The translations under genes were made by a program, and so were the position numbers. Shown here in pieces: positions 5,929 through 63,153 of a stretch of DNA of 64,000 bases. The notes below the pieces were generated by a model that was not told where the DNA came from, did not search any database, and was given only the letters and a program-made list of their open reading frames with translations. The first letter of the stretch is position 1. Each line of letters begins with the position of its first letter. The stretch covers positions 186,001 to 250,000 of the forward strand of contig CASEDF010000004.1 of the NCBI GenBank assembly GCA_949286705.1, given 5' to 3'. Source of the DNA: an uncultured bacterium (lineage in GTDB: Bacteria > Cyanobacteriota > Vampirovibrionia > Gastranaerophilales > Gastranaerophilaceae).

Positions 5929-6276
5929 ATGAAAATCAGTTTTGCTGGGATACATGATATAAGATTTCCGTATGGAACTCCGGATGCAAAAATAAATCAA
6001 ACATATCAGGAGATTAAAAAGTATACTGCTCAAAGCTTTCCTGAACTTGATAAATACGGAACATTCAACGTGGAAATCAAAGATTATTTTTCCCATCAAA
6101 AAACGGATGAAAAGCTGGCAGATAAAGGCATAAGAATTATAACGCCGGTTGAAAATCCTTATATAACAGCAGATTTATTGGAACACATTGATAACGGAAT
6201 GGTTCAACAATATGTTGATCAGACCAAAACAGAACTTATAATAAGCCCGCATAAACCCTTAGACGTGGTTATTTAA
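5929..6276 (+). CDS. Unknown 115-aa protein inside the spc operon
   Basis: I do not recognise this protein. It starts 3 nt after rplF and stops 28 nt before rplR, on the same strand, so it is almost certainly co-transcribed with them. Its start has only a weak TAAGG upstream, which suggests coupling to rplF termination. The product opens with [16 protein letters not shown], reminiscent of the 'ISF-G' leader of other proteins in this window, and continues as a soluble mixed charged sequence with no membrane segment or Cys cluster. Standard spc operons have no gene between rplF and rplR. A translation-related role is only an inference from position. Confidence 0.75.
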
Positions 6277-12498: not shown

Positions 12499-13635
12499 TC
12501 ATTTATCTTCAAGCACCAAGTTAGAAACTTTTTGGTTTACTTTAACAGCTGATTCTGAATTTTTATTATATTCAGGAGATTTTACTGCTTTGATAATCTC
12601 CGTCCCCAATACATCATCCGTTATAATAAAATTATCTATTTGAAGGCCAAAATTGTCCCTATCAAGAGGTACATTATCCACAGATATAGCCATTATTATT
12701 CCTGTATTCAACAATGCATCTATACCATGGAGTCTGCCGTCAATTAAAGAAACACCCCTAACTCTTGTTGACCAGCCGCCTTTGTCTTCGTGTACAATTC
12801 TTATTTCTTCAAAATTACTTAAATTATTATCTAAATCGTAAAACTTAAGGGTGTAATTACCATGAGAACCTTTAATTTGTATATCATCTTTACCCATAGA
12901 CTTTCGACCAAAATATTCCATTTCAGATTCATGTGTTTTTGCTTTTCCAGAAACATTAAAGTCAAAAATTGCGGATAATCTGTCGATTTTATTTTTTATA
13001 AAATCGTCATCAACAAAAAGCAAATCGCCTTCCTCAGTTGCAACAATCAAATTATTATGAGCCTGCCGGACACCTTTTATATTGCTCTGATTGGTCGGCT
13101 GGGAAATAACAGCTTCTACATAATTAACAACTTGAGGATCAAGAAAGCTGAAGCTTTGAATTTTTCCATTATATTCGGTTTCTCCTATGACTTCTTTAGT
13201 ATACATAGGGCCTTCTTTTACACCGTTTTCGCCATATAAATATATTTCTCTGTTGACAAGATCTTTGGCTTCAAATGTAAACTTTCCGGCTTTTAACAAA
13301 ATTTTATCAAAGCTGTCAGTGCCGCCTTTTGTATTCAATGCCATCACAGTAACGTCCGTGCCGTTTTGAGTCTTAAATGAATCACCATAAATAAGCACTC
13401 GGCTCTGCGACTGTGGAGCTTCCGCAAGCTCAATTGTGTGGGCATTGCTCTCTGCCCGCATAATATTTTCTGCATTTGTTGTCGTTAAAGGGCTCATTGC
13501 TATCAAAACCGCCAGAGGAACCGCCTTCATCGGACTTGTAACATTATGATTTTTTGCAGGTTTTTCCCCGCGTTTTCCAAAACTTATATTTGAATAACCC
13601 TTGTTCGTAACACTTGATATTGCTTGAATTGTCAT
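12499..13635 (-). CDS. Unknown exported protein with FG-type N-terminal leader (378 aa)
   Basis: The N terminus reads MTIQAISSVTNKGYSNISFG, followed by a basic stretch (KRGEKPAKNH) and a hydrophobic segment at residues 36-50 ending near TNA-EN (53-57), which could be a signal peptide with an unusually long leader. The first 20 residues align with those of the 94-aa protein at 28592-28876 (M-x-[IV]-x-x-I-S-x-[IV] ... K ... [IV]-[ST]-F-G). The mature part is beta-rich and soluble-looking with no family that I recognise. A good promoter (13738-13766) and a leader of about 100 nt precede it; RBS CAAGGAG. Probably envelope-associated or secreted; function unknown. Confidence 0.8.
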   Translation of the reverse strand: MTIQAISSVTNKGYSNISFGKRGEKPAKNHNVTSPMKAVPLAVLIAMSPLTTTNAENIMRAESNAHTIELAEAPQSQSRVLIYGDSFKTQNGTDVTVMALNTKGGTDSFDKILLKAGKFTFEAKDLVNREIYLYGENGVKEGPMYTKEVIGETEYNGKIQSFSFLDPQVVNYVEAVISQPTNQSNIKGVRQAHNNLIVATEEGDLLFVDDDFIKNKIDRLSAIFDFNVSGKAKTHESEMEYFGRKSMGKDDIQIKGSHGNYTLKFYDLDNNLSNFEEIRIVHEDKGGWSTRVRGVSLIDGRLHGIDALLNTGIIMAISVDNVPLDRDNFGLQIDNFIITDDVLGTEIIKAVKSPEYNKNSESAVKVNQKVSNLVLEDK

Positions 13636-13737
13636 AACAACTCCTTGTTTTTAGTACTTTTTCATCAGAAAACACCTAAAAACCTTTTTTGCTACCGCTA
13701 ATATTTATTTTTTTTAATTCACTAACCTTTTAAGCCT

Positions 13738-28591: not shown

Positions 28592-28876
28592 TTATGCCAT
28601 ATATGGCATATGAATGTATGAAGTTTTTGCTCTATTAGATTCTCTGTTTGGTGAAAATAGTATATTATAAGCCTTGGCAAATTTGCAGCCCAATGCCTTT
28701 AACGGATTAGATTGTACGGCATCGGCTTCTTGAGTAAGTCTTAAATTCTTTTCAAAATTCAATTTATCTGAATTTTGTAAAGATAAAAGACCGATTTTAG
28801 GGGTCATGTTATTCATATAACCTTCACCAAAGGTTACGTGTTTTGTGTTTATATTACTTATAGGAGTTACTCTCAT
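28592..28876 (-). CDS. Small FG-leader protein of unknown function (94 aa)
   Basis: The N terminus MRVTPISNINTKHVTFGEGY aligns with that of the 378-aa protein at 12499-13635, sharing M-x-[IV]-x-x-I-S-[SN]-[IV] and [IV]-[ST]-F-G. The remainder is short, basic and without a membrane segment, so this leader is not simply part of a signal peptide. The coding capacity is supported by an excellent promoter (28941-28969), an ideal ribosome binding site (AAAGGAGGT) and its own terminator. The last codons lie in an 18-bp palindrome (TATGCCATA/TATGGCATA). High expression is likely; function unknown. Confidence 0.75.
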   Translation of the reverse strand: MRVTPISNINTKHVTFGEGYMNNMTPKIGLLSLQNSDKLNFEKNLRLTQEADAVQSNPLKALGCKFAKAYNILFSPNRESNRAKTSYIHMPYMA

Positions 28877-28940
28877 TTTCTTACCTCCTTTCGAGGTTTT
28901 CTTATTAAGTGTTTTTTTAACACTTCATCTTAACAATTTC

Positions 28941-54611: not shown

Positions 54612-55214
54612 TTATTTAAGAGAACTTCTTGATACTATTCCTGCAAAAGCAGATCTAAGTTCATCAAATTTTTCTTTGTGCAAGGCTTTTGAATTAAGGT
54701 TTGCTGCATATTCGTCAATGCCTCTTACATATTCCAAAATACCTGCTTTTTTCGCTTTTTCCAATTCGGGACTTAAACCTCTGCTGAAAACAGTTGCATT
54801 TTCCGCTTTTTGTTGTTTTTTAAATAGGTTCTTTACAAATTTCTTAGTTTTAACCCATTTATCTGCAACAAAATCTGCAACAGAATTATATGCTCTGCTT
54901 AATCCTTCTTTAGCATTTTCAACATTTTTACTAAATCCGTTTGCTCTTAAATCTGCAAAAAATTTGCCGATATTTTTACGGTAAATAATACCTGCAGCAA
55001 TTGCACCTGCAGCAGCCAAACCGCCAACAATACCAAGAACAATCTTTTTGGATTTTGAATTATCTTTAACACGAACGCCGTAAGTATCGGCTATTTGTTC
55101 AAGCTGCGCTCTGTTTACAACAGCGGCGCCCATGTTGCCGTTTGTAACAGCTATTGAATATCTGTCTTTGCCTATTTTTTTAACATCATAACCAGGAATT
55201 GCTGCTATTGACAT
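54612..55214 (-). CDS. Unknown single-pass membrane protein (200 aa)
   Basis: No known family. N-terminal soluble part (MSIAAIPGYDVKKIGKDRYS ... LEQIADTYGVRVKD), one hydrophobic helix (about 57-77, Gly/Ala/Ile-rich) flanked by lysines, then a basic helical tail (WVKTKKFVKNLFKKQQK) and a final helical domain. The layout of Lys-flanked Gly/Ala helix resembles that of the 539-aa protein at 14907-16526. Monocistronic with its own terminator and a RBS AAAGGGC. Function unknown. Confidence 0.78.
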   Translation of the reverse strand: MSIAAIPGYDVKKIGKDRYSIAVTNGNMGAAVVNRAQLEQIADTYGVRVKDNSKSKKIVLGIVGGLAAAGAIAAGIIYRKNIGKFFADLRANGFSKNVENAKEGLSRAYNSVADFVADKWVKTKKFVKNLFKKQQKAENATVFSRGLSPELEKAKKAGILEYVRGIDEYAANLNSKALHKEKFDELRSAFAGIVSRSSLK

Positions 55215-55309
55215 ATTAATGCCCTTTCAAAATTTCTACCTACACTTACATTAAAACTCTTAAAAATTTTTATTGCTATTATTTATATATTTTGTTACAA
55301 ACATTAACA

Positions 55310-61911: not shown

Positions 61912-63153
61912 ATGGGAATGGCGGCAGGACAAGCCAGATTGCTCAGCATTACTGCAAGACTAAGTGATAATGAAGCCAATGGTCAAGCGCTTTCATATTC
62001 CAAACAGCGCCTTGCGGATGAAACAGAGCAGCTGAATACTAATTATAACAATGCGCTTGCTGCAACTAAATTACAGGTTCTTACAAGCTTTAACGGCACT
62101 ATCGCAAATTATTCGGATATTTCATATAATCTTATGACCGGCTACGACTCCGTTGCTCTTGGCAGACAATACATTGTCACAGATACCAAAGGCAGAATTC
62201 TTGTTACTGACAAACAGGCAAAAGCTTTTGAAGCCGGTAACGGTGACTTTAATATTTTCCTTGCGGAATTAGGCTACACACAGGCAGATTTAACCGCCAC
62301 AAGCACAAGCACTGATGAAGCTGCCAAAAATGAATCTTTACAAAAGATTCACGACGCATGGGATAAATATTTCACATCGATTGGAATTACATTTGACGAT
62401 GAAGAACATGAATATGGTGATGCCGCGATAGAATTTGGTTATCAAACTTTCAACGGCGATAATACATTATTTAACGGCTATCCAACTTATACAATAACCC
62501 GTAAACCAAATCTTGATAAAGATGGTAATCCTGTTTTGGATGAAAATGGTAATCCTACTTGGGAAATACTGCCAAATCCGGTGACTAATGCAATTAACTA
62601 TGAAGGCACAACAAAGGAACAACGCGAACTTTATGATTACGCGATTGCAATTACAAGCCAATATTATAGTGATGGAACTTATGATCACGTAAATCCGGAT
62701 GACGGCAAGGTTTCAAATAATTTATTACAGACTGCAAACGACATTGAAAAGGGTTATATAGATTATTTGAGGAACATTTTTAACAAAATGGCTTCAGACG
62801 GTTACTACACGGAAGAAAATGAAAACGATACAATTAAAGATGATGTATGGTTTGAACAACAAATTACGGAAGGTAAACTTCTTCTTGAATACTATTCTGC
62901 AACCGAAAAAGGATTTGTATCAACAACTATAAGCGATGATGATGCGATCCAAGAGGTTGAAGACGACCGTGAGATTGCAAGAGTTGAAGCTAAATATAAT
63001 CAGGATCTTGCATCTCTTGAAAAGAAAGACAGCATTATTGACCTCGAACTGAAAAAATTAGATACCGAACACAATGCGCTTCAGACTGAATATGAATCCG
63101 TAAAAAGCGTCGTAGACAAAAACGTAGAAAAATCATTCAATATATTCAGTTAA
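61912..63153 (+). CDS. Clade-type protein with terminal coiled coils (413 aa)
   Basis: No named family. It begins MGMAAGQARLLSITARLSDN, a helix that continues to about residue 55, has a variable Asp/Asn/Thr-rich central domain with DKDGNPVLDENGNPTWE (which resembles calcium-loop sequence) and ends in a helix rich in heptads (IDLELKKLDTEHNALQTEYE ... VDKNVEKSFNIFS). Helical termini framing a variable middle are a feature of flagellar and other surface-filament subunits, but no such homology is established here. I recall similar MGMA-start proteins from this clade in many copies. RBS AAAGGAAC, spaced a bit far. Own terminator downstream. Confidence 0.8.
   Translation: MGMAAGQARLLSITARLSDNEANGQALSYSKQRLADETEQLNTNYNNALAATKLQVLTSFNGTIANYSDISYNLMTGYDSVALGRQYIVTDTKGRILVTDKQAKAFEAGNGDFNIFLAELGYTQADLTATSTSTDEAAKNESLQKIHDAWDKYFTSIGITFDDEEHEYGDAAIEFGYQTFNGDNTLFNGYPTYTITRKPNLDKDGNPVLDENGNPTWEILPNPVTNAINYEGTTKEQRELYDYAIAITSQYYSDGTYDHVNPDDGKVSNNLLQTANDIEKGYIDYLRNIFNKMASDGYYTEENENDTIKDDVWFEQQITEGKLLLEYYSATEKGFVSTTISDDDAIQEVEDDREIARVEAKYNQDLASLEKKDSIIDLELKKLDTEHNALQTEYESVKSVVDKNVEKSFNIFS

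Follow-up and report, generated by a model that had tools for sequence, protein, structure and literature searches.

Otherwise unrelated proteins of the Gastranaerophilales, common gut bacteria of people and animals and non-photosynthetic relatives of cyanobacteria, begin with one short leader, which we traced from two genes in a 64,000-nucleotide window of one such genome (G000; contig 4, positions 186001-250000). The tag is real, order-specific, carried by unrelated proteins, constrained in its amino acids and, for a subset of its genes, encoded behind a shared promoter-like element. It probably serves as an address label, and we tentatively propose that this consensus tag may route dozens of unrelated proteins, some of them under a dedicated promoter class, through the order-wide filament-less flagellar-type type III secretion system (T3SS), a reading that we hold as possible rather than probable. 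A search of the open-access literature returned no coupling of the Gastranaerophilales with an N-terminal motif, no account of their T3SS and no secreted effector set.

The source genome comprises 1,849,024 bases in 41 contigs, of which 1.62 Mb (88%) were covered, read in stretches; all counts for it refer to that fraction, in which a simple home-made codon-usage caller gave 1524 genes. The assemblies in the sample are of metagenome type, gene starts are predicted, and some leader members were picked by hand. The original prediction had placed two open reading frames of 378 and 94 amino acids (aa) with a common N-terminal leader in the window, and both are found there, on the minus strand (Table 1), each behind a good ribosome-binding site. 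Their bodies are unrelated by BLASTP comparison, no Pfam or NCBIfam family scores above cut-off for either protein, and the leader is in no curated model of these databases. The 378-aa body also has no relative in PDB, Pfam or NCBIfam, and single-sequence structure prediction of this protein was uninformative (predicted local distance difference test score, pLDDT, 31.5).

Both window proteins open with a leader of two blocks, M-[KQR]-[IV]-N-x-[IV]-N ... [NS]-x-[NST]-F-[TKGQE]-G. Across the source genome the first block reads M-[QRK]-[VI]-[NQ]-x-[IV]-[NS] and is separated by a linker of variable length (a few to about 25 residues) from the second, [NS]-[PV]-[NSQ]-F-[TGQE]-G; in other genera it takes the form M-K-I-N-x-I-N ... 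N-F-K-G, and in the GT5 family the leader is compact (M-x-S-V-x-K-I-S-F-K-G-E). A strict regular expression for the leader matches 19 of 1494 real N-termini, compared with 5.2 in shuffled sequences and 32 of 7397 pseudo-N-termini consisting of an internal Met and the following 44 residues, so that the excess over shuffled N-termini expected from the original prediction is borne out. An iterated two-block position-specific scoring matrix (PSSM) with a threshold score of at least 12 yields 33 matches where 0.82 are expected, both window proteins scoring about 19, and in leave-one-out runs 21 of 27 core members reach the threshold, against 0.41 chance matches expected per proteome. Seven PSSM matches with obvious housekeeping or metabolic N-termini were taken out by hand. 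A chance origin of the shared leader is rejected.

The leader set of the source genome, formed by the PSSM members and by hand additions with weaker scores or the promoter-like element, holds about 43 proteins. Compared by BLASTP at 1e-3 from residue 36 onward, these fall into 42 body families, the sole related pair being two adjacent 519-aa paralogues; full-length homology as the source of the shared N-termini is thus rejected, and the idea of one short N-terminal tag on unrelated cargo, first drawn from the two window proteins, holds genome-wide. The cargo bodies with a recognizable family are a GH77 4-alpha-glucanotransferase, a GT5 protein of starch-synthase type and an AAA ATPase, and a 1359-aa leader protein is weakly GH13-like. 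HNH-like, GNAT-like and phosphatase-like candidates were picked out by eye, without confirmation from a family model, and the majority of the scanned bodies have no family.

The leader is specific to the Gastranaerophilales and present across the order, in agreement with the link to this group that the original prediction had offered. Searched as DNA, the N-terminal block (ATGMARRTNAAYNNNRTNAAY) gives 324 occurrences in 170 genomes of the window's family (reversed control, 51) and 21 in 22 genomes from six other families of the order (control, 8). The corresponding counts for block and control are 5 and 4 in five genomes from another family of the class, and 71 and 47 in 156 further genomes of the phylum. 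A stricter two-block pattern run over 84,980 species gave 33 loci. About 25 of these belong to Gastranaerophilales-type records, where the match falls on a gene start; the other 8 fall in frames of 4-30 residues or, in Brevibacillus, in a 117-aa frame. In a distant family of the order, gene calls over 400 kb show the leader in a looser form (MNIQPVKISFS, MFITPISFN..TTFG, MNLTSVNNQQTFG), and it is absent from gene calls in 400 kb of one sister-order genome.

The leader codons are under purifying selection. In the 378-aa family (13 homologues) the ratio of nonsynonymous to synonymous substitution (dN/dS) is lowest, at 0.06, in a hydrophobic segment, KAVPLAVLIAMSPLTTTNA; the leader has 0.17, the linker next to it 0.49 and the body 0.28. 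Homologues from other genera match mainly over the first 57-146 residues, which hold the leader and the hydrophobic segment, their bodies being diverged or different, and the segment, KAVPLAVLIAMSPL (window 13471-13530, minus strand; L222-L241), is common to different-bodied proteins in several genera. Because it is kept with the leader while bodies differ, the leader and this KAVPLA segment form a module of their own. Signal peptides normally tolerate much sequence change, and conservation to the degree seen in the segment is unusual for one. The same comparisons bear on the idea that the tag is a relic, functionless now, of the recurrent origin of young genes through fusion to a single mobile 5' module of promoter and start codons. 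Many bodies are lineage-specific and lack a Pfam family, as such an origin would have it; leaders, however, are kept across species and genera while bodies fall to about 30% identity (GT5 family; 378-aa family), and since retention of this kind needs selection, we regard a relic as very improbable.

Upstream of many leader genes lies an element of the form TAGCAAAAA-N8/9-[AC]-[CG]-R-TGTTTTA (second box GTGTTTTA), and we infer that it may act as a promoter. With leader genes defined by protein alone, GCAAA-N14..17-TTTTA occurs within 120 bp of 8 of 32 leader genes and of 14 of 1487 others in the source genome (P=4e-9), and a scrambled control shows no excess. The best of the other genes with the element included further leader genes (C4:57571, C4:77252, C5:87902, C14:981 and C6:107325) that had been missed by the PSSM or by the choice of start, and for some genes the distance from the second box to the ATG downstream is 7-10 bp, as in leaderless mRNA. 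Among relatives the association is weak (3 of 39 leader genes and 2 of 199 others, some of the latter resembling mis-started or variant leader genes): the exact element precedes some leader genes only, and most leader genes of other genera are without it. The 94-aa gene has a TTGACA-type promoter in its place. As only a subset carries TAGCAAAAA...GTGTTTTA, we rejected the element as a strict marker of leader genes. Together with the reduced synonymous divergence of the leader relative to the body in the 378-aa family, the shared element would suit a conserved 5' end that works at the level of gene expression, through promoter and start region, the amino acids being of little weight. Against this stand the lower dN/dS of the leader relative to its linker (0.17 against 0.49), the variation of synonymous codons among leader DNA matches and the missing exact element in other genera, and we consider an expression-level role improbable.

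The second block of the leader is anchored on F, continues in various ways (FG, FTG, FKG, FQR, FTA, FSS) and ends mostly in G. Such a conserved, mostly G-ending block could mark the site at or near F-x-G where a dedicated peptidase removes the leader, processing being one of the roles raised in the original prediction. The residues after F vary, which argues against a fixed cleavage site, and we rejected one after F-x-G; the block is centred on F with no fixed scissile position, and no peptidase partner turned up, none having been sought, so that removal of the leader seems decidedly unlikely. Double-glycine (C39-type) leaders are likewise short with a G near the end, but their GG/GA at fixed cleavage spacing is absent here, as are the G-F-T-L-x-E motif and adjoining hydrophobic helix of type IV prepilin leaders, which also are short and contain a G. 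Some leader proteins resemble Sec-exported ones: the leader is followed by a hydrophobic stretch whose end is Ala-x-Ala-like. Unlike a Sec signal peptide, however, the leader is polar and low in Leu, and in most leader proteins the hydrophobic stretch is missing.

We find the closest likeness in the N-terminal signals of type III secretion (T3S) substrates. Relative to other N-termini, leader residues 2-25 are enriched in N (x2.3), Q (x1.8), P (x1.7) and S (x1.5), the N and F enrichment being partly built in by the motif definition, and depleted in L (x0.34), E (x0.35) and D (x0.66), with W also low. The F-block of the leader has F-x-G in place of the FxxxPhi gate-recognition motif. T3S signals share a composition with no strict consensus, whereas the leader has an order-wide sequence consensus. 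Like the leader, T3S signals occupy the extreme N-terminus over some 15-40 residues independently of cargo and are S/N/Q/P-rich and L/E/D-poor; they have been described as rich in S/T/P, poor in L/E/D/A and enriched in polar-hydrophobic-polar patterns (PMC2669295). The leader shares this pattern and a two-part hydrophobic signal (PMC2669295, PMC8983047), two separate N-terminal signals being known for flagellar T3S substrates, with a two-part hydrophobic one in rod and hook subunits (PMC8983047). Membrane substrates of T3S have membrane segments of lowered hydrophobicity (PMC6110835). Such substrates would be expected to stay below the hydrophobicity that inner-membrane targeting requires; in the source genome the median Kyte-Doolittle (KD) value of such segments is 1.80 in leader proteins and 2.17 in other proteins (P=0.018; 15 proteins, values overlapping). 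Furthermore, Chlamydia trachomatis secretes GlgA, GlgB, GlgX, GlgP and MalQ by T3S, with T3S signals on GlgA and MalQ (PMC4829429), and the same enzyme classes are tagged here (GT5 glycogen-synthase type, GH77 and the weakly GH13-like 1359-aa protein). Unlike in Chlamydia, the tagged GT5 protein is highly divergent and has an untagged relative elsewhere in the genome (C18_7166).

The order has a conserved needle-type secretion apparatus, retained in the genus despite its lack of a flagellum. A full-length FlhA-type gate is present in 21 of 21 relatives tested, and FliI scores over cut-off in 20 of them. In the source genome Pfam identifies FliF, FliH, FliP, FliQ, FliR, FlhB, a FliM/FliN-type protein and FlgF/G-type rod proteins, and homology to the cluster of a relative (G007) adds FliE, FlgB and FlgC; no hook or filament genes, FlgE and FlgD included, were recognized in the covered part, apart from one weak FlgG-like match. 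Gene sets of non-motile members have been called incomplete flagella (PMC5877343), and loss of flagella has been inferred (PMC4451040). In other families of the order there is a second FlhA/FliI set, as would be expected if a true flagellum existed beside the filament-less system. We also observed an apparently undescribed, soluble T3SS-derived protein of about 490 aa, a stand-alone FlhA cytoplasmic domain (FlhA-C) with a coiled coil and a DUF4177-like N-terminus (C15:9045-10523 in G000; L016), residues 146-482 of which match FHIPEP 316-654. Of 44 genomes in the order 42 encode it, and it is missing from 11 sister-order genomes, two fragmentary assemblies there giving partial matches. In four genera the tagged GH77 gene comes next after the gene for this protein.

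In the mechanism we propose, the first 15-40 residues would form a portable recognition tag with two hydrophobic anchors, [IV]3/[IV]6 being one and an F further on the other, within an N/S/Q/P-rich stretch that holds little Leu and few acidic residues. A filament-less flagellar-type T3SS made up of FliF, FliH, FliI, FlhA, FlhB, FliP, FliQ, FliR, a FliM/FliN-type protein, FliE, FlgB, FlgC and FlgF/G-type proteins would read the tag as an export signal and take the tagged proteins as effector-like or surface substrates, and stand-alone FlhA-C could be an accessory docking factor, not needed in every genome.

Several observations weigh against T3S export. Thr is not enriched in the leaders, so that their composition resembles that of T3S signals only in part, and in a few of the 43 leader proteins, by inspection, the leader precedes a Sec-type hydrophobic segment that closes with an Ala-x-Ala-like site. 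The promoter-element scan gave no T3SS genes among its clear matches in the source genome, where three leader genes lie within 2 genes of T3SS genes (P=0.014) and there is no excess within 5-30 genes, hence no general clustering; a location near T3SS genes is typical of some, not all, effector sets. Two genomes without stand-alone FlhA-C, G135 (98% complete) and G365 (93%), keep leaders, so the stand-alone protein is not a required receptor. Sister-order genomes (f8) have the FlhA gate and no leader in the 400 kb examined, and the co-occurrence of leader and T3SS rests on one clade.

Alternatively, the leader may be a targeting tag for another receptor that brings enzymes of the cytosol together with membrane proteins of weak hydrophobicity and Sec-exported proteins in one place (a pole, membrane domain, vesicle or internal compartment) without type III secretion. 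Cargo enzymes that need cytosolic substrates (the GT5 starch-synthase type, the AAA ATPase), cargo with signal-peptide-like segments and the sister-order gates without leader all fit such a tag, whereas the composition and hydrophobicity features point to T3S and no candidate receptor or compartment was identified. In view of the Sec-type segments, the missing general clustering, the sister-order gates and the one-clade co-occurrence, we rate targeting to another receptor as somewhat unlikely and an export signal of the filament-less T3SS as a possibility that falls short of probable. With the consensus, about 40 candidate substrates per genome can be listed by sequence only, and the conserved, filament-less T3SS of the order gains a set of substrates open to testing. 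As a T3S signal the tag would be a rare example with a readable consensus; otherwise it would point to protein sorting by an undescribed system.

Table 1. Leader-bearing proteins of the window, their parts and upstream elements
Feature	Position	Strand	Remarks
378-aa leader-bearing protein	12499..13635	-	starts MTIQAISSVTNKGYSNISFGKRG; leader, then a basic linker, the conserved hydrophobic segment KAVPLAVLIAMSPLTTTNA and a body without family
Leader of 378-aa protein, residues 1-22 (MTIQAISSVTNKGYSNISFGKR)	13570..13635	-	PSSM 19.2; dN/dS 0.17 over residues 2-22
Hydrophobic segment of 378-aa protein, residues 36-55 (KAVPLAVLIAMSPLTTTNAE)	13471..13530	-	signal-peptide-like, unusually conserved, dN/dS 0.06
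Promoter-like element TAGCAAAAAAGGTTTTTAGGTGTTTTCTG of 378-aa gene	13666..13694	-	largely kept upstream of homologues
94-aa leader-bearing protein	28592..28876	-	starts MRVTPISNINTKHVTFGEGY; leader-bearing homologues in other genera
Leader of 94-aa protein, residues 1-18 (MRVTPISNINTKHVTFGE)	28823..28876	-	PSSM 19.4, whole N-terminus
Inverted repeat AAGTGTTAAAAAAACACTT (AAGTGT...ACACTT), 5' region of 94-aa gene	28907..28925	-	between promoter and start; downstream of TTGACA/TATAGT promoter
Promoter-like element variant (TAGCAATAAAAATTTTTAAGAGTTTTAAT)	55250..55278	-	precedes 200-aa gene 54612-55214
Examples of leader N-termini, residues 1-25			MQVNAINSFSNVNFEG...; MTIQAISSV...SFGKR

The 115-aa protein at 5929-6276 (plus strand), which the original prediction had named as a possible third member, scores -0.5 with the PSSM and was dropped; it has no known family and sits between rplF and rplR in a ribosomal-protein operon. 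The 200-aa protein behind the element variant, with N-terminus MSIAAIPGYDVKK, is not a leader protein by PSSM, and its gene is an uncertain candidate for the regulon. Separate from the leader genes, a set of 32 genes in the source genome encodes pseudopilin-like N-termini (FTLAEVLITLGIIG), a large number for a genome of 1.8 Mb. A protein at 61912-63153 of the window starts with MGMAAxQARxLxLTAR and belongs to a family found also at C2:119556, C4:9733, C4:109663 and C4:268135; the window member has no Pfam or NCBIfam match, and the family may comprise secreted or appendage components of the filament-less T3SS. Finally, an inverted repeat similar to that of the 94-aa gene precedes its homologues in L084, L091, L102 and L107, and this AAGTGT...ACACTT repeat, conserved across genera, is possibly an RNA element or an operator.
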